Shown here one piece after another: positions 1-37,627 of a stretch of DNA of 48,207 bases. The stretch comes from Frankiaceae bacterium (GTDB lineage Bacteria; Actinomycetota; Actinomycetes; BP-191): positions 1 to 48,207 of the forward strand of contig DATMES010000044.1 in NCBI GenBank assembly GCA_035556555.1, read 5' to 3'. Each line of letters starts with the position of its first letter. Positions within the stretch are counted from its first letter, which is position 1. Below the pieces are notes generated by a model. It ran no database searches. It was not told the DNA's origin and worked only from the letters and a program-made list of their open reading frames with translations. The translations under genes and the position numbers were made by a program.

Positions 1-832
1 GATCTCGAGCGACGGCGTGATCGTCACGAACAACCATGTCGTCGAGGGCTCGACGAGCGTCACCGTCGCCTTTCTCGACCGTGTCCACCGGAAGCCGCTG
101 AGGGGCACCGTCATCGGCACGGCGCCCGAGCGCGACCTCGCGGTGATCCGCGTCGACGCGACCGACCTCGTGCCGATCGCCGTCGCGCGCTCCTCGGCGC
201 TCCGCCTCGGCGACGGCCTGATCGCGATCGGCTTCCCGCTCGGTCTCGGCGGCCCGACCGTGACGCGCGGCATCGTCTCGGGCCTCAACCGGACGATCGA
301 GCCGCAGGGCGGAGCGAGGCTCGAGGGGCTGCTCCAGACCGACGCCGCCATCAACCCCGGCAACTCCGGCGGCGCGCTCGTCGACCGCGAGGGCCGCGTC
401 ATCGGCATCAGCACCGCGATCGCGTCGCTCGGCGGGCTCCTCGGCGGCGGTGGCGGCTCGATCAGCATCGGCTTCGCCATCCCGATCGACGAGGCGCGCG
501 CGGTGGCCGAGGAGATCATCCGCACCGGCCGGGCCACGCACCCGTTCCTCGGCATCAGCGGCAACGACATCACGCCGCAGACCGCGGAGCAGTTCGGCAC
601 CAAGGAGGGCGCGCTCGTCATGGAGGTCACGCGCGGCGGCCCCGCCGAACGCGCGGGACTGCGCGCCCGCGACATCATCGTGCGGCTCGGCGACGACGAG
701 ATCACGAGCATGGGCGACCTCATCGGGGCCATCCGCTCGCACCGGATCGGGGAGACCGTGGAGGTCGCGTACGTCCGCGACGGACGGCAGTCATCCGTGA
801 GAGTCACCCTCCAGCAGAAACCGTCCGGGTAG
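1..832 (+). CDS. HtrA/DegP-like trypsin-family serine protease with PDZ domain (5' end outside window)
   Basis: The C-terminal 270 or so residues of an S1C serine protease of envelope protein quality control. The reading frame is open from the first bases, so the start and any membrane anchor lie upstream of the window. The triad is visible: His in TNNHVV, Asp in ERDLAVI, and Ser in NPGNSGGAL (about residues 7, 40 and 117 of the visible part). A glycine-rich loop follows, then a PDZ domain over roughly the last 90 residues (GGPAERAGLRARDIIVRLG). The next gene is tatB, 39 bp downstream on the same strand; HtrA beside TatB is a common actinobacterial arrangement. Family assignment is firm; the substrate is not known. 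Confidence 0.93.
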   Translation, partial: ISSDGVIVTNNHVVEGSTSVTVAFLDRVHRKPLRGTVIGTAPERDLAVIRVDATDLVPIAVARSSALRLGDGLIAIGFPLGLGGPTVTRGIVSGLNRTIEPQGGARLEGLLQTDAAINPGNSGGALVDREGRVIGISTAIASLGGLLGGGGGSISIGFAIPIDEARAVAEEIIRTGRATHPFLGISGNDITPQTAEQFGTKEGALVMEVTRGGPAERAGLRARDIIVRLGDDEITSMGDLIGAIRSHRIGETVEVAYVRDGRQSSVRVTLQQKPSG

Positions 833-871
833 CCTGCGCGAAGAACAGGCGTCCCCGACGTTGGAGTGAGC

Positions 872-1189
872 GTGTTCGACAACCTGGGCTGGGCGGAGCT
901 GGCGGTCCTCGCCGTCGTCGCCATGCTCGTGTTCGGCCCCGAACGCCTCCCCAAGGTCGCCGCCGACGCAGGCCGGCTGATCCGCGAGCTGCGCCGGATG
1001 GCGAGCGGCGTGACGACGGACATCAAGAACGAGATGGGCATCGACCTCGACGAGATCCGCAGGCTCGACCCGCGGCGGTTCTTCGACGAGGACCTCGACC
1101 CGGCGCCCGCCGCGCGGGCCGCCGCCCCGGCCGCGGCGTCGCCCCTGGCGCCCGGCGACCCCGCGCCGTTCGACCCCGACGCGACGTAG
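872..1189 (+). CDS. tatB: Sec-independent protein translocase TatB
   Basis: Subunit of the twin-arginine translocase, which exports folded proteins. The N-terminus has one short membrane helix, then FGPERLPKVAADAGRLIRELR, the hinge and amphipathic helix typical of TatB, then an Asp/Ala/Pro-rich tail. Length is 105 residues from the GTG at 872. A GTG at 866 in the same frame would add two residues, but the GGAG at 863-866 overlaps it and is well spaced (5 nt) from 872, so 872 is preferred. TatA and TatC are not in the window; separate tatB loci are usual in actinobacteria. The sequence after the stop stays open in the same frame for another 73 codons (see next entry). Confidence 0.92.
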   Translation: MFDNLGWAELAVLAVVAMLVFGPERLPKVAADAGRLIRELRRMASGVTTDIKNEMGIDLDEIRRLDPRRFFDEDLDPAPAARAAAPAAASPLAPGDPAPFDPDAT

Positions 1190-1609: not shown

Positions 1610-2734
1610 CTACGCCGGCGACAGCCCCAGCGAGCGGCCCGCGAGGCCGCGCGAACGCGTGCCGAGCTGCTCGGCGACGCGGCGCAGCTCCTTCGACGCG
1701 GGCGCGTCGGGGTCGCTGAGCACCAGCGGCACGCCGGCGTCACCGCCCTCGCGCAGCCGTACGTCGATCGGCACCTGACCCAGCAGCGGCACCGGCGCGC
1801 CGACGGTCCGCGTCAGCGCCTCGGCGACCGCCTGGCCGCCGCCCGCGCCGAACACGTCCACGTGCTCGGAGCAGTGCGGGCAGGCGAGACCGGCCATGTT
1901 CTCGACGACGCCGGCGATGCGCTGGCGGGTCTGCACGGCGATGGAGCCGGCCCGCTCGGCGACCTCGCTGGCGGCGAGCTGCGGCGTCGTGACGACGAGG
2001 ATCTCGGCACTCGGAACGAGCTGCGCGATCGAGATGGCGATGTCGCCGGTGCCCGGCGGGAGGTCGCAGAGCAGGACGTCGAGGTCGCCCCAGAACACGT
2101 CCGAGAGGAACTGCTGCAGCGCCCTGTGCAGCATCGGCCCGCGCCAGACGACCGGCTGGTTGCCCTGCACGAACATGCCGATCGACACGACCTTCACGCC
2201 GTGCGACGTCGGCGGCATGATCATCGACTCGACCTGCGTGGGCCGCCCCTCGACGCCGAGCATGCGCGGGATCGAGAAGCCGTAGATGTCCGCGTCGACC
2301 ACGCCGACCTTGAGGCCGCTCGCGGCCATGGCGGCGGCGAGGTTGGCGGTGACGCTGGACTTGCCGACGCCGCCCTTGCCGGACGCGACGGCGTAGACGC
2401 GCGTCAGCGAGCCGGGCTGCGCGAACGGGATCTCCCGCGCCGCCTGCCCGCCGCGCAGCTGCGTCTGCAGGGCGGCGCGCTGCTCGTCGTTCATGACGCC
2501 GAGGTCCACGACGACCCCGGTGACGCCGTCGAGCCGCGAGACGGCCTCGGTGACGTCGCGGGTGATCTTGTCCTTCAACGGGCAGCCGCTGACGGTCAGC
2601 AGCACGCGCACCGTGACCACGCCGTCCGGCGCGACGTCGACCCGCTCGACCATGTTGAGCTCGGTGATCGGGCGGTGGATCTCCGGGTCCTGGACGGTGG
2701 CCAGGGCGGCGGTGACCTGCTCGGTGGTGGGCAT
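1610..2734 (-). CDS. mrp: Mrp/NBP35 (ApbC) family iron-sulfur cluster carrier ATPase
   Basis: Cytosolic P-loop ATPase that carries Fe-S clusters to apoproteins. The 374 residues comprise an N-terminal MIP18/DUF59 domain (about 1-85, with VSGCPLKD), a deviant Walker A SGKGGVGKSS (118-127), Walker B around LLCDLPPGTGD (221-231), and the cluster-bridging CPHC pair at 285-288. Length and order match the family. The gene faces away from the next gene (2841, plus strand), and its 3' end faces the tatB remnant. An AAGGA lies 11 nt before the ATG, slightly long spacing. Confidence 0.95.
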   Translation of the reverse strand: MPTTEQVTAALATVQDPEIHRPITELNMVERVDVAPDGVVTVRVLLTVSGCPLKDKITRDVTEAVSRLDGVTGVVVDLGVMNDEQRAALQTQLRGGQAAREIPFAQPGSLTRVYAVASGKGGVGKSSVTANLAAAMAASGLKVGVVDADIYGFSIPRMLGVEGRPTQVESMIMPPTSHGVKVVSIGMFVQGNQPVVWRGPMLHRALQQFLSDVFWGDLDVLLCDLPPGTGDIAISIAQLVPSAEILVVTTPQLAASEVAERAGSIAVQTRQRIAGVVENMAGLACPHCSEHVDVFGAGGGQAVAEALTRTVGAPVPLLGQVPIDVRLREGGDAGVPLVLSDPDAPASKELRRVAEQLGTRSRGLAGRSLGLSPA

Positions 2735-4200: not shown

Positions 4201-4686
4201 ATGGCCTCTCAGCGGTCGGCTTCCCCCACCTACTGGCTCACAACCGTCGAGCTGGACGCGTGGCGGTCGTTCCTGCGCGCGCACGCCAAGGTGACCCGGC
4301 AGCTCGACGCCGAGCTCAGCGCCGAGTGCGACCTGCCACTGGGGTCGTATGAGGTGCTCCTGCACCTCAACGAGCAGCCCGACCGCCGCCTGCGCATGAC
4401 CGAGCTGGCCGACCGGGTGCTGCTCTCCCGCAGCGGCCTGACGCGGCTGGTGGACAGGCTGGAACGCGAGGGGCTGATCAGCAGGGAGTCGTGCCCGAGT
4501 GACCTGCGCGGCACGTTCGCCGTGCTCACCGACGAGGGCGGCGACCGGCTCGCGGCCGCCGCGCCGATTCACCTGCGGGGCGTACGCGAGCACCTCGTCG
4601 ACCTGCTGACGCCCGAGGAGATCGAGGTCGTCGCGAGAGCGTTCGGGCGCATCACGAGCGACTGCCCTGGCCCGGTCCTGGACTAG
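4201..4686 (+). CDS. MarR family transcriptional regulator
   Basis: A 161-residue winged-helix dimeric regulator. The DNA-binding part is seen in LRMTELADRVLLSRSGLTRLVDRLEREGLI followed by a wing (SDLRGTFAVLTDEG). Helices at both ends would form the dimer interface. The ATG at 4201 fits a leaderless start (-10 TATCGT 7 nt upstream); in-frame codons upstream would run through the operator. It is divergent from the YceI gene and very likely controls both. Its stop overlaps that of the convergent GspE-like gene by 4 bp. Confidence 0.92.
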   Translation: MASQRSASPTYWLTTVELDAWRSFLRAHAKVTRQLDAELSAECDLPLGSYEVLLHLNEQPDRRLRMTELADRVLLSRSGLTRLVDRLEREGLISRESCPSDLRGTFAVLTDEGGDRLAAAAPIHLRGVREHLVDLLTPEEIEVVARAFGRITSDCPGPVLD

Positions 4687-7028
4687 ACCTCGGGTACGAG
4701 CGCGGCGCCTTCGAGCAGGAGGCAGACGTTCGCCTCCAGGGTGGCCGGGTCGACCGGCTTCGAGAGGTAGATGTCGGCGCCGGCGTTCGTGGCCTCCGTA
4801 CGCAGCAGCGGGTCGTCACTGCCGGTGAGCAGCAGCAACGGCAGCAGCGCCGTCCGCGTGTCGGCGCGCAGCAGGCGCGTCACCTCGATGCCGGACAGGT
4901 CGGGGAGCACGAGGTCGAGGATCATCGCGTCGAGGTCGTCGGTCGCGGCGATGCGCAGCGCCTCCTCGGCGTTGCGCGCGCGCATGACGTCGCAGACGTC
5001 GGCGAGCGCCGTCTCGACGTAGTCGAGCACCGACTCGTCGTCGTCCACGACGAGGACGGTCTTGCGGCGTTCGCCGCTCGCGACCGCGGCTCCGGGGACG
5101 ACCGGGCTGGCGTCGTGCGCGCGCCGGCACCACGGGCAGTTGCGCCACTCAGGCGCGACCGGCCGCGCGCAGCCCGCGCAGGTCGAGGTCTCGACTGCCG
5201 CGGCGCACCACGGGCAGAAGTGCATGTCCTCCTCGATCGAACGGTGGCACGCGTGGCACCGCGGCCCGCTCGCGGCGTCGACCTGCGTGACGCGCAGCAC
5301 CTCCTCCAGCGTCGTCTCGCCGCGCAGCGCGCGGGCGATGCCGTCGCTGCGCAGCGACGAGACCCCGGACGCGCGCGCCGCCGTACGGATCGCGGCCTCG
5401 GTCGGGCGCGCGGTCAGCACCGCGCGCAGCGCGGTGTCGACGGGGAGCACCTCGAAGATCGCGGTACGGCCGTGGTAGCCGGTGCCGCCGCACTGGTCGC
5501 AGCCGCGGCCGCGGACGAGGTTGGCGCCGGCCACGTCGTCGTGCGTGAGGCCGAGGAGCTGCAGCGTACGAGGGCTCGGCTGGTACGGCGCGAGGCAGCG
5601 CGAGCACGGCACGCGGACGAGCCGCTGCGCGATGACAAGGGTGAGCGAGGAGGCGATCAGGAACGGCTCGACGCCCATGTCGACGAGGCGCGTGACGGCC
5701 GCTGCGGCGTCGTTCGTGTGCAGGGTCGAGAACACCATGTGGCCGGTCAGCGAGGCGCGCAGCGCGAGCTCCGCGGTCTCGGTGTCGCGGATCTCGCCGA
5801 CGAGCACGACGTCGGGGTCCTGGCGCAGCACGGACCGCAGGCCGGCCGCGAACGTCAGCCCCGCGCGGTCGTTCGTCTGCACCTGCGTGATGCCGCGCAG
5901 CTGGACCTCGACCGGGTCCTCGAGCGTGACGATGTTGCGGTCCGGCGTCCGCATCTGCGAGACGGCCGAGTACAGCGTCGACGTCTTGCCGGAGCCGGTC
6001 GGGCCGGTGATGAGGACGAGGCCCTGCGGCACGACGATCGTGTCGAGGATCGTCTCGAGCTGCTTCTCGGTGAAGCCCACCCGCGACAGCGGGAGCACAC
6101 CCTCGCCGCGGGCGAGGAGGCGGATGACGACCTTCTCGCCGTGCAGCGACGGCAGCGTCGAGACGCGCGCGTCGATGCTCTCGCCGTCGACGTTGAGCCG
6201 CGCGCGGCCGTCCTGCGGCCTGCGGCGCTCGGCGATGTCGAGGCCGGACATGATCTTGACGCGGCTCGTCATCGACGGCGCGGCGTTCTTCGGCACCGTC
6301 ATGACGTCGCGGAGCAGGCCGTCGACGCGGTATCGCACGCGCAGGCCGTCGAGCTCGGGCTGGAGGTGGATGTCGGAGGCGCGGGCGCGGACGGCGTCGG
6401 TCAGGATGACGTTGACCATCCGGACGATCGGGGTGCCGTCGGCGTCGTCGTCGGCGTCGTTCGCGAAGTCGGTGGCGTCCTCGCCGATCGCGTCGAGCAT
6501 TCCCGTGACGTCGGAGGCGTCCTCCTCCAGCGACCAGGCGCGGGTGAGGTACTCGCGGATCGCGCTCTCCGTCGCGACGACGGGGACGATCGTGCGGGCG
6601 TTCGTGTAGAGGCGAACGTCGTCGAGCGCGACGACGTCGGTCGGGTCGGCCATCGCCAGCGTGAGACGGCCGTCGCTGTGCTCGATGCCGAGAACGGAGT
6701 AGCGCTCGGAGACGGCGCGCGGCAGCAGTCGCGCGGTCGCGGGCGCGACGGCGACGTGCGCGATGTCGACCATCTCCAGACCCAGCGCACGCGCGAGGCC
6801 GGCGGCGATGTCGCGCTCGGTCGCGAGACCCTTCGACACGACGAGCGCACCGAGCCGCTTACGGTTCTCGCGCGGCTGCGTCGCCTGCTCGGCCAGGCAC
6901 TCGTTGAGGTCGTTCTCGCTGATGACGCCACTGCCCACGAGGACCTCGCCGAGGCGGCGGCGCGGCTTCGCGGGCTCGGGCGGGAGCGCCCGGCGCCGGC
7001 CGCCGATGTAGTCGGTGTCGAGGGTCAC
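4683..7028 (-). CDS. GspE/PilB-type secretion ATPase fused to zinc ribbons and a response-regulator receiver
   Basis: A 781-residue multidomain protein. In order: an MshEN/T2SSE-N domain (about 25-165), the hexameric ATPase core with Walker A GPTGSGKTST (342-351), the Asp box TLEDPVE, Walker B QDPDVVLVGEIRD, His box STLHTNDA, and a CxxC...CxxC zinc motif (CSRC, CDQCGGTGY). Then comes a second cysteine cluster (CHAC, CPWC, CAGC, CPWC; about 590-635), which looks like a double zinc ribbon, and finally a receiver domain (about 657-775) with VVDDDE, a phospho-Asp in ILDLVLPD and Lys in YLSKP. The GTG at 7028 follows GGAGG; an ATG at 7055 lacks a site. PilB-like ATPases usually end after the first zinc motif, so the tail is unusual. 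No pilin or inner-membrane partner lies nearby. Confidence 0.9.
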   Translation of the reverse strand: MTLDTDYIGGRRRALPPEPAKPRRRLGEVLVGSGVISENDLNECLAEQATQPRENRKRLGALVVSKGLATERDIAAGLARALGLEMVDIAHVAVAPATARLLPRAVSERYSVLGIEHSDGRLTLAMADPTDVVALDDVRLYTNARTIVPVVATESAIREYLTRAWSLEEDASDVTGMLDAIGEDATDFANDADDDADGTPIVRMVNVILTDAVRARASDIHLQPELDGLRVRYRVDGLLRDVMTVPKNAAPSMTSRVKIMSGLDIAERRRPQDGRARLNVDGESIDARVSTLPSLHGEKVVIRLLARGEGVLPLSRVGFTEKQLETILDTIVVPQGLVLITGPTGSGKTSTLYSAVSQMRTPDRNIVTLEDPVEVQLRGITQVQTNDRAGLTFAAGLRSVLRQDPDVVLVGEIRDTETAELALRASLTGHMVFSTLHTNDAAAAVTRLVDMGVEPFLIASSLTLVIAQRLVRVPCSRCLAPYQPSPRTLQLLGLTHDDVAGANLVRGRGCDQCGGTGYHGRTAIFEVLPVDTALRAVLTARPTEAAIRTAARASGVSSLRSDGIARALRGETTLEEVLRVTQVDAASGPRCHACHRSIEEDMHFCPWCAAAVETSTCAGCARPVAPEWRNCPWCRRAHDASPVVPGAAVASGERRKTVLVVDDDESVLDYVETALADVCDVMRARNAEEALRIAATDDLDAMILDLVLPDLSGIEVTRLLRADTRTALLPLLLLTGSDDPLLRTEATNAGADIYLSKPVDPATLEANVCLLLEGAALVPEV

Positions 7029-7135
7029 GTACCTCCATCGTCCTGTCCCGGCCATCGCTGAATAGTTCCGAGGGGCCGTTCGGACTAGTACGAACGGGTG
7101 TCAACCGGACATACCGGTGGCAGGGACGGCGGGCC

Positions 7136-7967: not shown

Positions 7968-8516
7968 CTACTGGCCTCGGTCGTCCTTCAGGTCCTCGGC
8001 GAGGTGCTGCAGCTCCGACCTGAGGAAGTCGCGGGTCGCCACGTCGCCCAGCGCGATGCGGACCGCGGCGACCTCGCGGCTGAGGTACTCGGTGTCCGCG
8101 ATGGAGCGCGCGTACTGCGCCCTGTCCTCCTCCATGCTGACCCGGTCGCGGTCGGCTTGGCGGTTCTGCGCGAGCAGGATCAGCGGCGCGGCGTACGCCG
8201 CCTGCAGCGACAGCGCCAGCGTCAGCAGGATGAACGGGTACGGGTCGAACACGTCGCGGTCGGTACGGCACTCCGCGGCGGGGTCGGTCCTGCGCAGCTC
8301 ACGGCACTCCTCGTTGGCCCGGTGGTAGCTCAGGCCCATCCAGCCGTTGTAGCCGATCCAGACGATGACGATGACCGTCTGGATGACGAGGAACCGCGCC
8401 GTCCCGATGAACCGCGCGATCGTCTCGGAGAACCGCCCGAACGCCTCCGGGTCGTAGTGCGGACGCGGCAGGCCGCGGCGGATGACGCGGGGCTGGTCGA
8501 TGCGCCCCTTAGCCAT
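7968..8516 (-). CDS. DUF1003 membrane protein
   Basis: 182 residues with two membrane helices, around FLVIQTVIVIVWIGYNGWMG and YPFILLTLALSLQAAYAAPL. The second segment plus LLAQNRQADRDR is the DUF1003 hallmark. The C-terminus is a charged helical region with no known role. The ATG lies inside the 3' end of the upstream CBS gene (8-bp overlap), so the two are translationally coupled. DUF1003 beside MgtE/CBS genes is recurrent in actinobacteria, which suggests a link to divalent-cation homeostasis; that is inference. Confidence 0.93.
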   Translation of the reverse strand: MAKGRIDQPRVIRRGLPRPHYDPEAFGRFSETIARFIGTARFLVIQTVIVIVWIGYNGWMGLSYHRANEECRELRRTDPAAECRTDRDVFDPYPFILLTLALSLQAAYAAPLILLAQNRQADRDRVSMEEDRAQYARSIADTEYLSREVAAVRIALGDVATRDFLRSELQHLAEDLKDDRGQ

Positions 8517-9753
8517 CGAGCTGCTCCTCGTCCTCGCGCCAGTTCTCCGGCAGGAGGTGGTCGAGGACGTCGTCGACCGTGACCGCGCCGAGCAGGTGCG
8601 AGCCCTCGTCGACGATCGGGACCGCGGTGAGGTTGTACGTCGCGAGGTGCTGCGTGACCTGGCGCAGCGTCGCCTGCGGGCCGAGCGGGTCGAGGTCGGT
8701 GTCGGCGACCGCCGCGACGAGCGCGCTCGGCGGCTCCCGCAGCAGCCGCTGGATGTGGCAGATGCCGATGTACCTGCCGGTCGGGGTCTCCGTCGGAGGG
8801 CGGCAGACGTAGACCTGGCTGGCGAGGGCGGGGGAGAGGTCGGGGTTGCGGACGTGCGCGAGCGCCTCGGCCACCGTCGCGTTGGGCAGCAGGATGATCG
8901 GCTCGGTCGTCATCAGGCCGCCGGCCGTGTCGTCGCCGTAGGTGAGCAGGCGGCGTACGGGCTCCGCCTCGTCCGGCTCCATCAGCTCCAGCAGGCGGGC
9001 GGCGTTGGCGGGCTGCATCTCACCGAGGACGTCGGCGGCGTCGTCGGGCGACATCGCCTCGAGGACGTCGGCGGCGCGCTCGTTGTCGAGGTGGTCGAGG
9101 ATCTCGACCTGCTCGTCCTCGGGCAGCTCCTCGAGGACGTCGGCGAGGCGTTCGTCGTCGAGGGCGTTGGCGACCTCGAAGCGGCGCTTGTCGGAGAGGT
9201 TGTGCAGCTCGTTCGCGAGGTCGGCGGGGCGCATGTCCTCGTACATCGCGAGGAGGTTGGCCGTGCCCTGGTTGGTCTCGTCGGCCGCGAAGCCGCTGAC
9301 CTCGTCCCAGCGCAGCTCCTGCTGGTGGCCGCGGCGGCGCATGCCCCCGCTGCGTACGGCGACGCGCGTCAGCTGCCAGTCGCCGGTGCGGGTCGGCTCC
9401 ATCGCGCAGTCGTAGACGATGACCTGCGTGCCGGTCGCGAGGACCTGGACCTTGCGGTCGATGAGCTCGGCGTTGACGAGCGTCTCGGACTCGCGGCGTT
9501 CGAAGCGGCGCAGGCTCACCGTGCCAGTGGTGAGCACGACCTGGCTGGCGTCGAACGAGCGCACCCGCAGGATCGGCACGAAGATGCGGCGGCGCTGCAC
9601 GTCGACGACGAGGCCGAGCACCCGCGGGGGCTGGCCGCGCAGGCGCAGCGTCGCGACGACGTCGCGGACGCGGCCCACCTGGTCGCCGTTCGGGTCGAAG
9701 ACGACGAGGCCGGAGAGGCGCGCGCAGAACACGCGCGTCGTGGTCGTCGTCAT
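8509..9753 (-). CDS. PRC-barrel, MgtE N-terminal and CBS domain protein without a channel domain
   Basis: 414 residues. The N-terminus is PRC-barrel-like (GLVVFDPNGDQVGRVRDVV). In the middle is an MgtE_N-type helical repeat (DERLADVLEELPEDEQVEIL, AADVLEAMSPDDAADVLGEM). The C-terminus has two CBS motifs (MTTEPIILLPNATVAEALAH and LATYNLTAVPIVDEGSHLLG). No transmembrane helices follow, unlike true MgtE channels, so it is a cytosolic sensor module. It overlaps the DUF1003 gene by 8 bp. A -10 box TAGCCT lies 6 nt before the ATG, a leaderless arrangement. It may sense Mg2+ or nucleotides for a partner; this is inferred. Confidence 0.9.
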   Translation of the reverse strand: MTTTTTRVFCARLSGLVVFDPNGDQVGRVRDVVATLRLRGQPPRVLGLVVDVQRRRIFVPILRVRSFDASQVVLTTGTVSLRRFERRESETLVNAELIDRKVQVLATGTQVIVYDCAMEPTRTGDWQLTRVAVRSGGMRRRGHQQELRWDEVSGFAADETNQGTANLLAMYEDMRPADLANELHNLSDKRRFEVANALDDERLADVLEELPEDEQVEILDHLDNERAADVLEAMSPDDAADVLGEMQPANAARLLELMEPDEAEPVRRLLTYGDDTAGGLMTTEPIILLPNATVAEALAHVRNPDLSPALASQVYVCRPPTETPTGRYIGICHIQRLLREPPSALVAAVADTDLDPLGPQATLRQVTQHLATYNLTAVPIVDEGSHLLGAVTVDDVLDHLLPENWREDEEQLDG

Positions 9754-27136: not shown

Positions 27137-27505
27137 GTGACCCGAGCACTGATCGTGGACGACGAAGAGGACATGCGCTTCCTCGTCCGGACCGTCATCG
27201 AGGCGGCCAACAACGGGCTCGAGGTCGCCGGCGAGGCGGCCGACGGCGACGCCGCGATCGCGTACTGGCGGGCCGAGCGCCCCGAGGTCGTCGTCCTGGA
27301 CCACCGCATGCCCGGGCTGTCCGGGCTCGAGGTCGCCGAACGCATCCTCGCCGAGTCGCCCGAGCAGCGGATCATCCTGTTCTCGGCCTACCTGGACCCT
27401 GAGACGACCGCGGAGGCGACCCGGGTCGGTGTCGACCTGTGCCTCGCCAAGAGCGACTACTCCCGGCTTCCCGAGGCACTGTGGCGACTCGCTCCGCCGG
27501 CCTGA
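27137..27505 (+). CDS. Stand-alone response regulator receiver domain
   Basis: 122 residues, one receiver domain and nothing else. The acidic pocket is IVDDEED, the phospho-acceptor Asp55 lies in VVLDHRMPGLSGLE, and the conserved Lys is in LCLAKSD. With no output domain it must act by phosphotransfer or protein contact. The GTG at 27137 has AGGA 4 nt upstream. The downstream kinase gene begins inside its last 25 bp. First gene of the receiver-kinase-kinase-receiver operon. Confidence 0.92.
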   Translation: MTRALIVDDEEDMRFLVRTVIEAANNGLEVAGEAADGDAAIAYWRAERPEVVVLDHRMPGLSGLEVAERILAESPEQRIILFSAYLDPETTAEATRVGVDLCLAKSDYSRLPEALWRLAPPA

Positions 27506-29481
27506 CAGGCGGCGCCATCGCCGTCGCCGCCGTACTCACGGCGGGCGGCGCGATCGGCGCGCGCGCGGCAGGGTCGGCGGCCGACAACGCCAGGGAGAAC
27601 GGCGCGCGCCGCGCCGCCACCGCGACCACGCGCGCGTTCGCCGCGTCGGTCGAGGGCGTCCGGCGCACCGTCGACTCCGTCGCGCTGCTCGCGCCGCGCA
27701 TCGCCGCGAGCCCCACCGCCCCGCCCGCGCAGCTGCCCGGGCTGCTCTCCGAACGCGGCGTCCGCGCCGTCGCCGTCCTTTCCGCCACCGGCCACCCCGC
27801 GGTGGTCGCGGGGGTGCTCCCCGAGGGGCTCGCCGCCGCCGCGCTGCGTGCGGACCTCGCCGCCGCGCTCGACGTCGCGCGCGACACCGGCGACCCGCAC
27901 GCGGGGGTCGCCGGTCGCGACATCGCCGTGGTCATCCCGGTGTACGACGGCATGGTCGCCTCGACCGAGGCACGCCGGACCGCGCTCACGTCCTGGGTCG
28001 TCGCCGTGGTCGACGTGAAGTCGCTCGTCGGAGGCGCGACCGCCGACGGCGAGACCGCCGTCCTCAGCGTCGGCGGCATCCCCGTCACGCCGGCCGCGAA
28101 GGCAGACGGCACCAGCGCCGACGTCACCGTCGACCTCGGCGGCCAGCCGCTGCAGCTCGTCGTCACCGCGCCCGTCGAGGGCGGCGCCCGGGCGATCGCG
28201 GTGGTCATCCTGCTGCTCGGCATCCTCGGGGCGGCCGGCGCGCTGCTCGTCGGCGCCATCGCCGAACGCGCCCTCCGGCGCTCGCGGGCGACGACCGACG
28301 CGCTCGAACGCGAGACCCGTACCGTCGCCGAGATCGGCCCGCTCCTCCAGCAGAGCCTCGACCTCGCCGAGGTGCTGCCGGCCGTGGCCGTACGGCTCTC
28401 CGACGAGTTCCAGCTCGAGTCGTTCGCCGTCGAGCTGGTCGGCGAGCACGGCGAGCCGGTGGACGTGTTCTCCGTGGGGCGGCGCTCCGTCGGCGACGCC
28501 GAGGTGTTCATCGCTCCCGAGGGCATCCCCGCGGGTGTCGAGGTCGCGCTCCCGCTGCTCCGCGCGGGGCGCACGATCGGCAGGCTGCGGCTCGCGCCGC
28601 GCGACCACCTCTCGACCATCCAGGTCGACGCCCTGCGCGGCGCCGCGGACCTCATTGCCGTGGCGACGTACAACGTCGAGCTGTACGAGCGCGAGCAGGC
28701 GACCGTCCGCCGCCTCCAGGAGCTCGACACGCTGAAGGACGCGTTCCTCGGCACGATCTCCCACGAGCTGCGGACACCGATCACCGCGATCAGCGGCTTC
28801 ACCCGCATGCTCAACGAGCGCTGGGACGACCTGTCGGAGGAGATGCGCCGCGACTTCCTGCGCCGCGTCGGCCGCAACAGCGCGAGCCTCGGCATGCTCG
28901 TCGACGACCTGCTCGACTTCGCGCGACTCGAACGCCAGGCGCTGCAGACCAACGTCACGCCGATGCCGCTCGACAGCGTCGTCGCGGGGTTCGTGGCGCA
29001 GGTCGTCCCCGCGCTGGGCGACCACCCGGTCGAGACCGACCTCGCATCCGACGTCGTCGCGCTCGTCGACCCGCGCGCGATCGAGCGCGTCCTCGCCAAC
29101 CTCCTCACCAACGCCGCGAAGTTCTCGCCGCCGGGGGCGCCGGTCGAGGTGGCGCTGCGCAAGGGCGAGGCGTCGGCGGTGCTCACCGTCAGCGACCGCG
29201 GCCCCGGCATCGCCGCCGAGGACAGGCTGCGCGTGTTCACCCGCTTCTACCGCGGCGAGTCCGACATCGCGCGCTCCACCCGCGGCGCCGGCATCGGCCT
29301 CGCGGTCGTCCACGAGCTCGTGACGCAGATGGGCGGCGACATCGCCGTCCGCGGCCGCGAGCCGAACGGCACCACCATGGTCGTGCGACTGCCCCTCGCC
29401 GAGCCGGCCGAGACCGTCATCGACGACCTCCCCGCGCCCCGCGGAGCGGAAGACCTCATCCCAGCGAGGAGCAAGCCGTGA
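27481..29481 (+). CDS. Membrane sensor histidine kinase with extracytoplasmic and GAF domains
   Basis: 666 residues. In order: a membrane helix near the N-terminus, an extracytoplasmic domain of about 200 residues rich in Ala, a second helix (VVILLLGILGAAGALLVGAI, about 240-262), a GAF domain (about 285-410), HisKA with SHELRTPITAISGF (phospho-His428) and a HATPase domain with NLLTNAAKFSP, DRGPGIAAED and GAGIGLAVVHELV. The GTG at 27481 lies within the end of the receiver gene, 4 nt after GAGG; a GTG at 27439 would add 14 polar residues before the first helix. The signal is unknown. Confidence 0.9.
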   Translation: MATRSAGLTGGAIAVAAVLTAGGAIGARAAGSAADNARENGARRAATATTRAFAASVEGVRRTVDSVALLAPRIAASPTAPPAQLPGLLSERGVRAVAVLSATGHPAVVAGVLPEGLAAAALRADLAAALDVARDTGDPHAGVAGRDIAVVIPVYDGMVASTEARRTALTSWVVAVVDVKSLVGGATADGETAVLSVGGIPVTPAAKADGTSADVTVDLGGQPLQLVVTAPVEGGARAIAVVILLLGILGAAGALLVGAIAERALRRSRATTDALERETRTVAEIGPLLQQSLDLAEVLPAVAVRLSDEFQLESFAVELVGEHGEPVDVFSVGRRSVGDAEVFIAPEGIPAGVEVALPLLRAGRTIGRLRLAPRDHLSTIQVDALRGAADLIAVATYNVELYEREQATVRRLQELDTLKDAFLGTISHELRTPITAISGFTRMLNERWDDLSEEMRRDFLRRVGRNSASLGMLVDDLLDFARLERQALQTNVTPMPLDSVVAGFVAQVVPALGDHPVETDLASDVVALVDPRAIERVLANLLTNAAKFSPPGAPVEVALRKGEASAVLTVSDRGPGIAAEDRLRVFTRFYRGESDIARSTRGAGIGLAVVHELVTQMGGDIAVRGREPNGTTMVVRLPLAEPAETVIDDLPAPRGAEDLIPARSKP

Positions 29482-31112
29482 AGTCCACCGGTCGCGACCG
29501 CGCCCTCATCGCCACCGCCGTCGTCCTCGTCGTCGCCACCGCGACGCTCGTGCTGACGACGGTCCTCAAGGCGGCGAACGACGGCACGAAGGCGTTGCAG
29601 CAGCTCCAGCTCGAACAGGTCCAGCAGCTCACGCGCGGCATGGACAGCCGCATCGCGAGCACGTTCCAGTCGCTGGCCGGCATCGCGTCGGCGCCGCCGG
29701 CGTGGAACGTCACCAAGGGCGACGCCGCGGACAAGAAGCGGCTCGAGCAGTTCCAGTCGCTGAACCCCAAGGCGCGCACCGGGTTCTTCCTCGTCGACGC
29801 CAAGGGCACCATCACCAACGGCACCCTGCTGCGCGACCCCGCGTCGGTGGGGATGACGTACGACGCGAAGGCGCTTGCCGGCGTCCTCGCCGGAGCGCCC
29901 GCCATCCTGCCCGTGAGCGACGGCCTGACGACGTCGTTGCGCGTCGTCACGATCGCGTTCCCGCTCAAGGACGGCGCGCAGCAGAAGGTCATCGGCGCGA
30001 TGCTCATCGAGAGCGACCTGTCGGTCGACTCGGCGTTCAACGCGGAGGTCGCGCAGCTCAAGCGCGGGCGTACCGGCGAGTTCACGTTCGTCGACGAGAA
30101 CGGCTTCGTCGTCGCGTCGAGCAACGCCGCCTCCCTCGGCAAGGCGCTCGACGAGCCGCTGCTCGCCACCGGACGTACCGGGCTGCACAAGCCGAACGGC
30201 CGCCTCGTCGTCATCGAGCCGGTGGCCTCGGCCGGCTGGCGGACGGTGTTCCGCCAGGACATCGACGAGTTCCAGGGCGCGCTGACCGACCCGCTGTACT
30301 CCGCGCTCGCGTACGTCGTCGTCGCCGCGGTGCTCGCCGCCGGCGTCGTCGTCCTCACCCTCGGCCGCCGCCTCCGCAGGGCGCGCGAGGAGCAGCGCAG
30401 GCTCGAGGAGATCAACGCGGTCCGCGAGGAGTTCATCTCCATCGTCAGCCACGAGCTGCGGACGCCGGTGGCCGGCATGCTCGGCTTCCTGCAGACCACG
30501 CTCGACCACTGGGAAGTGATGACCGAGGGCGAACGCCAGCGCGCCATCTCGCGCGCGATGTCGTCGGCCCGGCGGCTGCATTCGCTGACCCGCGACGTCC
30601 TCGACACCTCGAGCATCGAGGCCGAGGGGATGACGTACGCGATGTCCGACGTCGACCTCCGCGAGGAGATCGCCTCCGCCGTGGCGGCGGAGCGCGACCT
30701 GCGCCCCGACCGCATCATGTCGCTGGAGCTGCCCGACGACCCCGCGTGGGTGCACTGCGACCCGGACCGCGTCCAGCAGGTCATCACCAACCTGCTCGAC
30801 AACGCCATCAAGTCGTCGCCCCCGCTGACGCCCATCGAGGTGACCGTCACGTCGTCGGACGAGACCGTCGAGGTGGTCGTCCGCGACCACGGCCCAGGTC
30901 TGTCCGACTCGGAGCTGACGCGGGTGTTCGAGAAGTTCGTCCGCGGCCGTACGTCCACGCCCACCGGCACCGGCCTCGGGCTCTACATCTGCCGCCAGCT
31001 CGTCGAGGCGCAGGGCGGGACCATCAGGGCCGAGCGCGCGGAGGACCGCGGCGCCCGCTTCGTCGTGACGCTGCCCCGCGTCCAGGCGCCCGCGGAGCCG
31101 GTCGGGGCGTGA
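29478..31112 (+). CDS. Membrane sensor histidine kinase with Cache-type sensor domain
   Basis: 544 residues. A membrane helix at about 8-30 and another near 270-295 flank a periplasmic-type region (about 35-265) with the look of a double Cache domain (FLVDAKGTITNGTL, GRTGEFTFVDENGFVVASSN). Then HisKA with SHELRTPVAGMLGF (phospho-His325) and HATPase with NLLDNAIKSSPP, RDHGPGLSD and GTGLGLYICRQLV. No HAMP domain is evident. The GTG overlaps the stop of the first kinase (GTGA) with AGGAG 6 nt before it. It is coupled to the other kinase and followed after 4 bp by a second receiver gene. Confidence 0.92.
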   Translation: MKSTGRDRALIATAVVLVVATATLVLTTVLKAANDGTKALQQLQLEQVQQLTRGMDSRIASTFQSLAGIASAPPAWNVTKGDAADKKRLEQFQSLNPKARTGFFLVDAKGTITNGTLLRDPASVGMTYDAKALAGVLAGAPAILPVSDGLTTSLRVVTIAFPLKDGAQQKVIGAMLIESDLSVDSAFNAEVAQLKRGRTGEFTFVDENGFVVASSNAASLGKALDEPLLATGRTGLHKPNGRLVVIEPVASAGWRTVFRQDIDEFQGALTDPLYSALAYVVVAAVLAAGVVVLTLGRRLRRAREEQRRLEEINAVREEFISIVSHELRTPVAGMLGFLQTTLDHWEVMTEGERQRAISRAMSSARRLHSLTRDVLDTSSIEAEGMTYAMSDVDLREEIASAVAAERDLRPDRIMSLELPDDPAWVHCDPDRVQQVITNLLDNAIKSSPPLTPIEVTVTSSDETVEVVVRDHGPGLSDSELTRVFEKFVRGRTSTPTGTGLGLYICRQLVEAQGGTIRAERAEDRGARFVVTLPRVQAPAEPVGA

Positions 31113-31116
31113 CGGT

Positions 31117-31473
31117 GTGAGCAGGGTGGTGGTCGTCGACAACGACGAGGACGCGCTCGACCTCCTCGTCATGGACCTGACGCTGGAGGGCCACGAGATC
31201 GTCGGCACGGCGTACACCGGCGAGGAGGCGATCGCGCTCTGCGAGTCGCTGCGACCGGACATCCTCGTCGTGGACTACCGGATGCCGCCAGGTCTCAACG
31301 GCCTCGACGTCGCGCGCGCCGTACGGGAGCTCCCCGGCCTGCGGGTCGTCGTCTACTCGAACTACCACGACGTACGGCTGCGCGACCAGATCGCCAAGGC
31401 CGGCGCGACGTACCTGCAGAAGGGGCAGCTCTCGGCGCTACGCCGCGTGCTGCGGGAGGAGCAGCCGGCCTAG
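31117..31473 (+). CDS. Stand-alone response regulator receiver domain, stop codon inside a transposon target site
   Basis: 118 residues, receiver only. The acidic pocket is VVDNDED, phospho-acceptor Asp53 is in VVDYRMPPGLNGLD, and the Lys is in YLQKGQ. No DNA-binding domain follows. Its TAG stop (31471-31473) is part of the CTAG duplicated by the neighbouring transposon. The right-hand flank (CTAGTAGCG) shows that the uninterrupted gene also ended there, so the protein is intact. Last gene of the four-gene signalling operon; its original downstream sequence is now at 35674. Confidence 0.9.
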   Translation: MSRVVVVDNDEDALDLLVMDLTLEGHEIVGTAYTGEEAIALCESLRPDILVVDYRMPPGLNGLDVARAVRELPGLRVVVYSNYHDVRLRDQIAKAGATYLQKGQLSALRRVLREEQPA

Positions 31474-32800: not shown

Positions 32801-33601
32801 ATGCCTGACATCGGAGACTGTGTGCTCTGCGGCGCGGTCGGCGTCGAACTCCACCGAGAGGACGCGATCCCGCTCTGGGTCATGGAACTGCTCGGCGGAC
32901 CGGGCGACGTGTGGTGGACCAAAGACGGTGCTGAGCAGTGGCTCGCCCCGGCGTTCCTCGTAGACACCTGCCGACCCTGCAACGACATGATGAACCGGCT
33001 GTACGAGAACCACGACATGGCGCAGCGCGTCCTCCCTCCCCTTCTCGTCGGATCGCCCGTGATCCTCTCGGGCAAGGAACAGAGGTTCGTCGCTGACTGG
33101 CTCATAAAGACCTCACTCATGATCGACGCAGCCGTGCCGCATGATCCGCGCCCCGACCTGCTGCACCACTTCCACGAACACAACTTCCGCCTACCGGACG
33201 CGACGGTGTGGATAGCGAAATACGAGCCATCGGTGGTTGTAACGCCACACCCGCCATTCGATCCGCGCTCGCCAGACCACCCGGCCAAGTCGCGGATACC
33301 GCCGCATGAACCAACTCCACGCATCGGTACGCCAATAGGGGTGACGCCGTTTCACTTCCCGCACATAGTGAACAACGAACCGCTTGCGTACGTCGGACCG
33401 ACCCGAATCGGTGCGCTGGTCATGTACGCCACCCACAGGGCGCGCGGACTGACGGTCGGCTTCTACAGCGCCCTGGACCGGCTGATGTTCCGAGTGCCCA
33501 ACCGGGGTCGCGTCGCCTGGGGTGACCTCCCGGCCATCGACGCTCAGGGATGGGCCGATATTGCCGCCAGCGTTGTATGGAGCGGACCCCGGTCGACGTA
33601 G
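32801..33601 (+). CDS. Transposon cargo: HNH-endonuclease-like protein
   Basis: 266 residues. The N-terminus has CVLCGAVGVELHREDAIPLW and, 40 residues on, DTCRPCNDMMNRLYE: two CxxC pairs framing HxEDxIPxW, the layout of HNH-related proteins in which the zinc knuckles hold the fold. The canonical second His/Asn is partly conserved (CN). The remaining 180 residues show no known domain. GC content is visibly lower than in the surroundings and rarer codons such as ATA and GTT are used, suggesting recent transfer. ATG at 32801 follows a G-run. Nuclease activity is not proven from sequence. Confidence 0.6.
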   Translation: MPDIGDCVLCGAVGVELHREDAIPLWVMELLGGPGDVWWTKDGAEQWLAPAFLVDTCRPCNDMMNRLYENHDMAQRVLPPLLVGSPVILSGKEQRFVADWLIKTSLMIDAAVPHDPRPDLLHHFHEHNFRLPDATVWIAKYEPSVVVTPHPPFDPRSPDHPAKSRIPPHEPTPRIGTPIGVTPFHFPHIVNNEPLAYVGPTRIGALVMYATHRARGLTVGFYSALDRLMFRVPNRGRVAWGDLPAIDAQGWADIAASVVWSGPRST

Positions 33602-33721
33602 GTTCTCGCTCACGCCGCCTCCCCCGAAAGAAATCCGAGAAAGGTGCCACTACCTGGGACAACGACGCCAGAAAATGTCACACCCCCCTGACAGAGTGGG
33701 AGGTACAGGAGAACAACAAGC

Positions 33722-33752
33722 GGCCCCCGCGACGCGCTAACGTCCGGGGGCC
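33722..33752 (+). terminator. Hairpin between the HNH-like gene and the transposase
   Basis: GGCCCCCG and CGGGGGCC pair perfectly around a 15-nt loop, ending 22 bp before the transposase ATG. It could insulate the transposase from read-through or lower its translation, a usual safeguard in insertion sequences. Confidence 0.55.
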
Positions 33753-33774
33753 AGGACCAAGGAGCGGTAACTCC

Positions 33775-34893
33775 ATGGCCGAGGCCAAGGTAACACCCGC
33801 GCGCGACGCGGAACAGATCAGGCGGCTGCTCGACCTGCCCGAGGTAGGTCAGCTGATCGCGCAGTTGGACGCGCTGCGCTGGACCGGGCGAGCCGGTTAC
33901 GGCGCCCGGGCGATGGTCGGCATGGCGATGGTCAAGAGCCTCTACTGCATCCCCGTGTGGACCCGCGTCGTCGCGCTCGTACGGGACCATGCCGCGCTGC
34001 GTGACGTGATCGGCGCGGCGCCGTCCGAGTGGGCGTGCTACCGCTTCGCCGCGAAGTTGCGGACGCACGCCGACGCGCTCGCCGCGTGCCTCGACGCCGT
34101 GGTCAGCCGGCTCAGCGTCGAGGTCCCCGGCTACGGCGAGAAGTTGGCCATCGACGGCTCCGACCTGCCCGCCTACGCGAACGGTCAGCGGTACCTGTTC
34201 AAGGACGGGCCGGAACGCGAGCACTTCGCGGACCCGGACGCGACGTGGGGACACCGTTCCTCCGTGGGGACACGTTCGGGTGGCGGGTTCTACGGGTTCA
34301 AGGTCCACGCCGCCGTGTGCGCCAACACCGACCTGCCAGTGGCGTGGGTGACGCGCACCGCGAAGGCGTGCGAACTCCCCGAGGTGGAGACGCTGCTCGA
34401 CATCGCGAAGGGGCGCGGCATCGTCCCGGCCGTGGCTGTGCTCGATAAGAACTACGACGCCAAGGGCATCTACGCCGAGTGCGTCAGCCGGAAGATCAGG
34501 CCGGTCATCGCCCTGATCGAGACGGCCACGGTGAAGCGCGGCGAGCACAAGCCGCCGACATGTGACCACGGCCAGTGGACGTTCGCCGGGGCCGACGACA
34601 AGCGGCAGGCGACGCAGTGGCGTTGTCCGACGCGGGAGTGCGCGCCGAAGTCGATCTGGCGTCCCTACTCGCGGCTGCACCCGCCGATCCCCCACGGGTC
34701 GGCGCGGCACAAGGCGCTGTACCGCAAGCGCGTCGCGGTCGAACGCGGCTTCGGCAGGCTCAAGAACGAATGGGGCGCACTGCCCCTCCGCGTACGCGGC
34801 ATCGACCGCGTGACGCTCCACGTGGACCTGACGATGCTCGCCTGCCTCGGGACGGCGCTCGACCGGGCCAACCGGGTGGCGGTCGCGGCGTAG
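33775..34893 (+). CDS. IS5-type DDE transposase
   Basis: 372 residues. The catalytic triad is Asp127 (LAIDGSD), Asp224 (AVLDKNYDAKG) and Glu323. Glu323 lies in the exact Y-x2-R-x3-E-x6-K signature (Y316, R319, E323, K330: YRKRVAVERGFGRLK) of IS4/IS5 transposases. A cysteine insert (TCDHGQW, WRCPTRECA) between the second Asp and the Glu may bind zinc. The frame stays open upstream to 33550, but the ATG at 33775, after AAGGAG, begins the conserved part. It should move the whole element by the cut-and-paste reaction, acting on the 15-bp ends. Confidence 0.92.
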   Translation: MAEAKVTPARDAEQIRRLLDLPEVGQLIAQLDALRWTGRAGYGARAMVGMAMVKSLYCIPVWTRVVALVRDHAALRDVIGAAPSEWACYRFAAKLRTHADALAACLDAVVSRLSVEVPGYGEKLAIDGSDLPAYANGQRYLFKDGPEREHFADPDATWGHRSSVGTRSGGGFYGFKVHAAVCANTDLPVAWVTRTAKACELPEVETLLDIAKGRGIVPAVAVLDKNYDAKGIYAECVSRKIRPVIALIETATVKRGEHKPPTCDHGQWTFAGADDKRQATQWRCPTRECAPKSIWRPYSRLHPPIPHGSARHKALYRKRVAVERGFGRLKNEWGALPLRVRGIDRVTLHVDLTMLACLGTALDRANRVAVAA

Positions 34894-36051: not shown

Positions 36052-36648
36052 CTAGTCGGCGGTGCGGCGGCGGGTCTCGGCCACGGCGTCGTCGGCCATG
36101 TCGAGGAACGCCAGCGGCGGCGTCTCCCCGCCGACCATGAGCAGCTCCATGCCGATGTCGAGATCCAGCGAGCCGAAGCGGACGGCGTACGGCGCCGCGA
36201 GGTTCGAGGCGATCCGGCCCGCCACGAGCATGAGCGTGTCGCGGTCGGCGATGCCCTCGCAGAGCACCGCGAAGTCGGCCGGTCCGAAGCGCGCGACCGT
36301 GTCGGTGTCGCGGACCCCGCGCGCGATGCGCTCGGCGACGTCGCGCAGCACCCGGTCGCCCTGCGAGCCGCCGAGGCGTACGCGCAGCGCCTCGACGTCC
36401 TCGACGGCGAGCAGCAGCAGCGCGACCTCCTCGTCCTTGCGGCGGGCCCGCGCCATCGCGAGCGCGATGCGGTCGAGGAGGAGGGCGCGTTCGGGCAGGC
36501 CCGTCACCGGGTCGTGCAGCGCGCCGTGCAGCGGGTCGGCGTCCCTGCGCGCCTCGTCCACCAGGTAGTGCGTCGCGGTCTCCGGCGCGTTCCTGCCGGC
36601 CAGGCCGCGCACCTTCGCCCACGTCGCCGCGCCACGCGTCAGCTTCAT
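36052..36648 (-). CDS. Degenerate GGDEF domain protein with a retained I-site
   Basis: 198 residues. The domain runs from LHDPVTGLPERALLLDRIAL, a standard GGDEF opening, through RVLRDVAERIARGVRDTDTV. The signature position reads FGPADF instead of GGDEF, so diguanylate cyclase activity is unlikely. RDTD, five residues before it, fits the RxxD inhibitory site that binds cyclic di-GMP. No membrane helix or other domain is present. The ATG at 36648 has TACAGT 6 nt upstream; the G-run between could also act as a ribosome site. It may be a c-di-GMP receptor; this is inferred. Confidence 0.85.
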   Translation of the reverse strand: MKLTRGAATWAKVRGLAGRNAPETATHYLVDEARRDADPLHGALHDPVTGLPERALLLDRIALAMARARRKDEEVALLLLAVEDVEALRVRLGGSQGDRVLRDVAERIARGVRDTDTVARFGPADFAVLCEGIADRDTLMLVAGRIASNLAAPYAVRFGSLDLDIGMELLMVGGETPPLAFLDMADDAVAETRRRTAD

Positions 36649-36654
36649 CCCCCC

Positions 36655-36660
36655 ACTGTA
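36655..36660 (-). promoter_or_regulatory. -10 box of the GGDEF-type gene (leaderless type)
   Basis: TACAGT on the minus strand, 6 nt before the ATG at 36648. Confidence 0.5.
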
Positions 36661-36751
36661 CGAACCATCGCCCGGCCTGGGCATGGTCCGTTCGGGCTGC
36701 TCCGGGGGCGCCTGCGCGTTTTTGTCACACCCCCGTGTGACGATCGCTCGC

Positions 36752-37627
36752 ATGGACACGCTGCCGTTCGAGGCCCCGCCGCGCCACCTCTTCACCGTGT
36801 CCGCGTCGTCGCTCGGGGCGTGGCTCGACTGCCCCCGGCGCTACCGCATGGCCTACGTCGACCGGCCGCCGCCGCCCCGCGCCGGGGCGTTCGCGCACTC
36901 CTCCCTCGGCTCGTCCGTGCACAACGCGCTCCGCGACTGGTGGCTCGCGCCGCGCCCGCGGCGGACGCCGCTCGCCGCGGGCTCGATGCTCGACCTGGCC
37001 TGGATCGGCGACGGCTACCGCGACCGCGAGCAGGCGGAGACCTGGCGCACTCGCGCGCGGACGTGGGTCACGACGTACGTCTCCGGCAGCGACCCCGACG
37101 ACGAGCCGCGTTCGGTGGAGCGTTCCGTGGCGGCGCGGTACGGCGACGTCCAGGTCCGCGGCCGGATCGACAGGCTCGACGACCGCGACGGCGAGCTCGT
37201 GGTCGTCGACTACAAGACGGGGCGCCGCGGTGTCTCGGCCGACGAGGCGCGCGGGTCGTGGGCGCTGGCGATCTACGCGTACGCCGTCGAGCGCACGCTG
37301 CGGCGCCCGTGCCGGCGGGTCGAGCTGCACCACGTCCCGAGCGGGGAGGTGGTGTCGCACGAGTTCTCCGTCGAGTCACTGCGGCGCCAGCTCGACCGGG
37401 TGACCGACGTGACCGAGGAGGTCCGGGGTGCCGTCGAGGGCGTGGCGGCCGGCGGCGACGCCGAGGAGCTGTTCCCCGCGCGGCCGTCGCCGGGGTGCGC
37501 GTGGTGCGACTTCCACCGTTCGTGCGCGGCGGGGCGGGCGGCCGTAGCCCAGGCCAGGCAGCCGTGGGACGGGCTCGCGAGCGACGCCGACGACGCGGCG
37601 CGGGAGGTGGTGGTGCCGGTGGCGTGA
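36752..37627 (+). CDS. RecB/Cas4-like PD-(D/E)XK nuclease with Fe-S cysteines
   Basis: 291 residues. The N-terminus has FTVSASSLGAWLDCPRRYRM, the first Cys of a Cas4/AddB-type 4Fe-4S cluster. The nuclease motif is GRIDRLDDRDGELVVVDYKTGR (D, then DYK). A Q-like motif follows at ALAIYAYAVER, and the C-terminus contains the remaining three cysteines in GCAWCDFHRSC. There is no helicase domain. No cas genes or CRISPR repeats lie nearby, so it is a stand-alone RecB-family exonuclease, as often seen in actinobacteria. The ATG at 36752 has no strong ribosome site. Confidence 0.88.
   Translation: MDTLPFEAPPRHLFTVSASSLGAWLDCPRRYRMAYVDRPPPPRAGAFAHSSLGSSVHNALRDWWLAPRPRRTPLAAGSMLDLAWIGDGYRDREQAETWRTRARTWVTTYVSGSDPDDEPRSVERSVAARYGDVQVRGRIDRLDDRDGELVVVDYKTGRRGVSADEARGSWALAIYAYAVERTLRRPCRRVELHHVPSGEVVSHEFSVESLRRQLDRVTDVTEEVRGAVEGVAAGGDAEELFPARPSPGCAWCDFHRSCAAGRAAVAQARQPWDGLASDADDAAREVVVPVA

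Follow-up and report, generated by a model that had tools for sequence, protein, structure and literature searches.

A PilB-type ATPase of Actinomycetota fused to zinc ribbons and a receiver domain is most likely a second type IVa pilus motor

Type IV pili are hair-like filaments that bacteria use for sticking and crawling, and their extension ATPase, PilB, acts as a hexamer on PilC. PilB is known to be tuned by separate proteins (FimX–PilZ, EmvR), and the related ATPase MshE by c-di-GMP that it binds. EmvR, a lone receiver of Xanthomonas oryzae pv. oryzicola, binds PilB and lowers its ATPase activity in an Asp59-dependent manner (PMC11973254). FimX (REC-PAS-GGDEF-EAL) operates with PilZ and PilB, such that receiver and c-di-GMP signals both reach PilB (PMC11656802, PMC8389850). 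MshE of Vibrio and PA14_29490 are c-di-GMP-binding ATPases, and the paper that defined their motifs also lists other proteins in which MshEN and REC are combined (PMC5013675). Actinobacterial pili have likewise been placed under c-di-GMP, in that the RsiG–WhiG switch acts on T4P genes in Rubrobacter, at the level of transcription (PMC8325347). We found no description of a PilB–receiver fusion, or of the ATPase clade described below, in open-licence PMC papers.

We analyzed a 48,207-nucleotide stretch of a Frankiaceae genome, contig C44 (the window), which encodes such a fusion, hereafter PilB2. The longest-ORF rule gives a 790-aa minus-strand frame without internal stops (4683..7055). A GTG start at 7028, giving 781 aa to the stop at 4683, is preferred because GGAGG lies just upstream and the same VT.. 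N-terminus occurs in two same-genus orthologues. The features of the gene are as follows, with residues in 790-aa numbering.

4683..7028, minus strand: PilB2 gene, MshEN – T2SSE ATPase – double zinc ribbon – receiver (Shine-Dalgarno, orthologue N-termini)
6531..6965, minus strand: MshEN (N1D) region (Pfam, c-di-GMP motif comparison)
6885-6956, minus strand: strict c-di-GMP motif 1, RLGEVLVGSGVISENDLNECLAEQ, within MshEN (motif as published in PMC5013675)
6777-6857, minus strand: relaxed c-di-GMP motif 2, within MshEN (motif as published in PMC5013675)
5292..6443, minus strand: T2SSE ATPase core (Pfam, residue check)
5982-6005, minus strand: Walker A, residues 351-358
5784-5822, minus strand: catalytic-Glu box, residues 412-424
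5712-5747, minus strand: His box, residues 437-448
5595-5606 and 5490-5501, minus strand: tetracysteine zinc site, C484/C487/C519/C522
5121..5267, minus strand: double zinc ribbon (DZR), two CxxC..CPWC ribbons (Pfam, paired CxxC)
4710..5066, minus strand: receiver (REC) domain (Pfam, residues, modelled fold)
5040-5045, minus strand: receiver acidic pair D671/D672
4914-4916, minus strand: receiver phospho-acceptor D714 (Asp705 from the GTG)
4824-4826, minus strand: receiver T744
4758-4760, minus strand: receiver K766

Pfam matches to MshEN (residues 91-173, 66 bits), T2SSE (205-588, 433 bits), DZR (PF12773; 600-643, 30.4 bits against a cut-off of 27.3) and Response_reg (PF00072; 667-776, 73 bits), together with the residue positions, bear out the original prediction that an ATPase, a second zinc-ribbon cluster and a receiver share one protein. 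The ATPase has the Walker A, catalytic-Glu and His boxes in its T2SSE core and MshEN/N1D and N2D at its N-terminus. The four cysteines of the C-terminal domain (CTD) zinc site are invariant in the 17 sequences compared. The second cysteine cluster consists of four CxxC at 600-643, besides this usual PilB site; in relatives the CxxC are paired, with one ribbon degenerate in L073/L081. The receiver had also been predicted to be intact with its Asp and Lys, and D714 and K766 are indeed present, as are the acidic pair and T744, which completes the set expected of a PF00072 member.

The nearest solved proteins, both by sequence and by fold (Foldseek), are PilF/PilB and GspE, and PilB2 aligns with full-length PilF/PilB chains from residue 23-34 onward. 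An AlphaFold2 model built with 17 related sequences (mean pLDDT 73) gave confident ATPase and receiver folds, with a poorly placed zinc-ribbon linker. PilB2 shares with PilB/PilF of Thermus (6f8l), Geobacter (5tsg/5zfr) and Myxococcus (3jc8) the MshEN/N1D, the N2D, the T2SSE core, the catalytic residues and the CTD zinc site, but adds the C-terminal double zinc ribbon and receiver and is encoded outside the pil cluster. It scores 587.6 bits with the NCBIfam PilB equivalog TIGR02538 (curated cut-off 675.65) and 571.4 bits with TIGR02533 for GspE (cut-off 630.25). Because both scores fall below the cut-offs, we call PilB2 a PilB paralogue and not a canonical PilB. Of the two 24-residue c-di-GMP motifs of MshE/PA14_29490, the first is matched strictly and the second is relaxed and partly conserved; MshE, for its part, has no described receiver or DZR.

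Joining of two genes by a frameshift or an assembly error had been named as a finding that would undo the prediction. Two congeneric genomes contain the whole fusion (81 and 79% identity), and many independent assemblies contain it at 45-58% identity. Three same-genus genomes (~80% identity) have the frame open, as do many independent MAGs, and since the same-genus orthologues carry the fusion, no frameshift or assembly join is involved. Simple pairwise counts within the genus gave dN/dS of 0.37-0.41 for the receiver, 0.30-0.36 for the MshEN region and about 1-1.4, near neutral, for the linker between MshEN and T2SSE. The zinc ribbon, like the receiver, stays below 0.5, which also speaks against a chimera, and these ratios indicate that the receiver is evolving under purifying selection. 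We therefore rejected a chimeric origin, which we consider virtually excluded. A viral origin was rejected as well, as a search of viral contigs found no relatives. Each component (PilB, MshEN, receiver, zinc ribbon) is already known; the PilB–receiver fusion is real and conserved, a variant of the PilB theme.

The original prediction had also stated that no pilin, PilC or prepilin peptidase gene lies nearby. This holds for the window: C44 has no match to the PilC family (PF00482), and tblastn of the genome's own PilC, PilD, PilM, PilN, PilO and two pilins against the window returned nothing significant. The genome as a whole (3.98 Mb in 71 contigs) is a different matter, as the suggested search for other pilus genes uncovered a complete type IVa pilus (T4aP) cluster on contig C27. 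Lying between aroE and aroC (both named from their sequences), this cluster encodes a DUF4388 protein, a Ras-like GTPase, a tail-less 554-aa PilB (PilB1), PilT, PilC, two pilins, minor pilins, PilD, PilM, PilN and PilO. PilB2 is encoded apart from PilC, PilT and the pilins, and the absence of pilus genes around it reflects the dispersal of the PilB2 gene, not a missing machine. Directly upstream of PilB1, the DUF4388 protein and Ras-like small GTPase (L041:9563-11193 on C27) form a pair that recalls the GTPase control of Myxococcus pili. Where simple gene calling mis-framed or missed genes (around PilT in L041, at the L139 PilB2, and in several loci without a called PilB2), HMM matches were used instead.

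PilB1 and PilB2 fall into separate clades with support of 100/100, and a quick tree of a wider sample again separated them with support of 100, placing the window protein in a distinct, deep PilB clade. Around PilB2, the window encodes the following genes.

17-832, plus strand: HtrA
866-1189, plus strand: TatA/B
1610-2734, minus strand: Mrp/ApbC
7968-8516, minus strand: DUF1003, on the other side of PilB2
8509-9753, minus strand: MgtE_N/CBS, on the other side of PilB2

Many loci of the class share this arrangement, in which PilB2 is flanked by mrp, tatA/B and htrA at one end and by genes for MgtE-N/CBS and DUF1003 proteins at the other. In other classes, mrp still adjoins PilB2, mostly with tatB and htrA, in five of the loci examined (L140, L142-L145). 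In these genomes PilB2, sitting beside mrp, therefore looks vertically inherited, outside any pil operon. The PilB2–receiver copy of G350 is situated away from mrp. One of the loci near mrp, L142:8682-13266 (G455), holds a tandem pair of PilB2 genes with zinc ribbons and receiver-length tails. A second PilB2–receiver copy lies near mrp at a contig edge in G001 (L063:6518-7720 / L066), and is either a duplication or strain mixture, this MAG having 7% contamination.

Relatives of PilB2 occur in Frankiales/Frankiaceae, Acidothermaceae, Kineosporiaceae and other Actinomycetota, nearly all as MAGs; two Kineosporia isolates encode a PilB2 with the zinc ribbon and no receiver. The cultured, non-pathogenic Kineosporia sp. 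A_224 has three PilB-type ATPases, among them a zinc-ribbon PilB2 (L085). Among 297 genomes of the class passing a 90% completeness filter, 25 contain PilB2, spread over 13 families. Three weak contig matches from other phyla (L086, Calditrichota; L089, Phycisphaeraceae; L090, Bacillota) were rejected as fusions outside Actinomycetota, since their receivers are separate proteins standing apart from the ATPase. In the Calditrichota MAG, the stand-alone receiver ORF (L086:3223-3621) lies near two PilB-type ATPases and is a possible unfused counterpart. Compared with the original prediction, the analysis adds this spread of the fusion over several Actinomycetota classes, the second PilB for a T4aP encoded elsewhere and the N-terminal c-di-GMP motif.

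The locus itself hints at another function, since its conserved neighbourhood contains no pil genes. PilB2 might power a different filament or secretion process, or serve a non-pilus role tied to its mrp, tat and htrA neighbours. However, mrp, tat and htrA are housekeeping genes whose locus is conserved throughout the phylum, and proximity to them is little guide to function. Across the survey, T4aP-type PilC and/or PilM were found in 23/25 genomes with PilB2 vs 47/272 others (Fisher p 3e-14, in a test that ignores kinship). The two exceptions (G010, G177) have neither PilC nor PilM at the thresholds used, which would agree with a non-pilus role, but both are fragmented MAGs.

Stronger evidence against a non-pilus role comes from genomes that retain PilB2 while their T4aP cluster has no PilB. 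In the near-complete genomes G046 and G088, the cluster encodes PilT, PilC, pilin-like proteins, PilD, PilM and PilO (contents Pfam-checked for G088), and PilB is missing from exactly the position, between aroE and PilT, that PilB1 occupies in the genome of the window. Neither genome has any PilB-type ATPase other than PilB2. The same is true of G063 and G075 from the same family, and a further member (G029) has PilB1, with PilB2 not found at the thresholds used. Read most simply, this means that PilB2 can drive a T4aP on its own. All four sole-motor PilB2s are tail-less, so this evidence bears on the job of the ATPase and not on the tail. As PilB2 is the sole PilB where PilB1 has been lost, its most likely role is that of a second motor for extending the type IVa pilus, and we regard the non-pilus alternatives as quite improbable. 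In a separate instance, G036, which also has a PilB2–receiver fusion, encodes a divergent PilB-type ATPase adjoined by PilC and a response regulator (L120:3611-7989).

The tail of PilB2 occurs in five states: absent, zinc ribbon alone, ribbon with an intact receiver, ribbon with an Asp-less receiver, and receiver without ribbon (L018, L125). The main PilB2 lineages include members with a receiver. Intact receivers are found in the window's genus, among several lineages of Frankiales type and in further classes of the phylum (G350, G509, G548, G455); the second tandem copy of G455 and one copy in G577 were assigned as receiver fusions by alignment span. In L014, L015, L074 and L077, the receiver follows a zinc ribbon and has Q, C or H in place of the Asp. 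Mapped on the ATPase tree, receiver presence requires at least 8 changes. In a tree with 30 other receivers from the window's genome, the PilB2 receivers group together, save for one long branch from that same genome (2 changes vs 13.5 in shuffles), a grouping that agrees with a single recruitment without demonstrating it. The distribution indicates that the receiver is absent or Asp-less through several losses across PilB2 lineages, and the history was probably one early recruitment, after which receivers were lost or decayed repeatedly. A possible alternative is that receivers were gained or transferred more than once, in keeping with their patchiness in the class of G350, where only 3/24 genomes have a strong match.

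We propose that PilB2 is a second T4aP extension ATPase that works conditionally, with phosphorylation, and probably also c-di-GMP, adjusting its output in cis, and assign this reading a probability of roughly 0.6. A PilB2 hexamer would sit beneath the inner-membrane platform protein PilC and drive pilin polymerization, with pilus parts supplied from the C27 cluster of the same genome. The N-terminal MshEN region would probably bind c-di-GMP, which the genome very likely makes, given its 20 GGDEF matches. One of these is a predicted diguanylate cyclase within the window (36055-36795).

At the other end of the protein, a flexible zinc-ribbon spacer joins the receiver to the ATPase CTD, which would give a hexamer six receivers. 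An unlinked histidine kinase would probably phosphorylate Asp714 (Asp705 from the GTG), altering the docking or dimerization of the receivers around the hexamer and thereby motor output. By analogy with EmvR, the effect is most likely inhibitory, such that the motor would be under a restraint that a histidine kinase, encoded at another locus, imposes or relieves. With the receiver fused to the motor, a sensor kinase could probably throttle PilB2 directly. No kinase gene adjoins PilB2. A two-component cluster ~20 kb away in the window (27137-31470), comprising a receiver, a histidine kinase with a CHASE-like sensor, a kinase-like ORF and a second receiver, is a possible phosphoryl source. Elsewhere in the window, a 447-aa ORF (33550-34893), transposase-like by eye, lies in the stretch of lowest G+C.

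Phosphorylation-dependent tuning in cis is favoured because of the EmvR precedent (PMC11973254), in which a receiver acts directly on PilB and needs its phospho-acceptor Asp, as we propose for PilB2 from its sequence. The difference is that EmvR is a separate protein acting in trans, whereas PilB2 carries its receiver on the motor polypeptide. FimX, too, belongs to a separate multi-protein complex and has a degenerate receiver, while PilB2 has both predicted inputs on the motor itself; RsiG–WhiG control is transcriptional, whereas control of the motor is proposed here. The original prediction had called direct phosphorylation control of a pilus or secretion motor unusual; such control fits the data, but with EmvR already published the principle is less unusual than was thought.

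The main rival explanation holds that the receiver is a docking or localization module that brings PilB2 to a pole or to a partner independently of phosphorylation. The persistence of Asp-less receivers (Q, C or H) in L014, L015, L074 and L077 is consistent with this idea, as is, by analogy, the FimX receiver, which lacks the Asp and still affects localization (PMC11656802). Docking may be a reasonable role for the Asp-less variants in their own lineages. Against it as the general function, the window's genus, most Frankiales-type MAGs and the examined members of other classes retain the phosphorylation residues, and the receiver is under purifying selection. We consider a docking module unlikely for the window protein, and prefer phosphorylation-dependent tuning in cis.

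A motor with its own receiver, if confirmed, would put pilus extension under a two-component system with no need for transcription or adaptor proteins, and a single purified protein would suffice for direct testing of receiver control. More tentatively, at somewhat less than even odds, PilB2 may represent an old Actinomycetota motor clade that takes c-di-GMP input at its N-terminus and phosphorelay input at its C-terminus, working beside the ordinary PilB as a phosphorylation-gated second motor of the same pilus, with pili re-wired in the lineages that lost the gate or that PilB. The fusion appears old and is common to many uncultured soil actinobacteria, a poorly studied group in which the division between PilB1 and PilB2 is clear and tail-less, ribbon-only, intact-receiver and dead-receiver forms provide natural variants.
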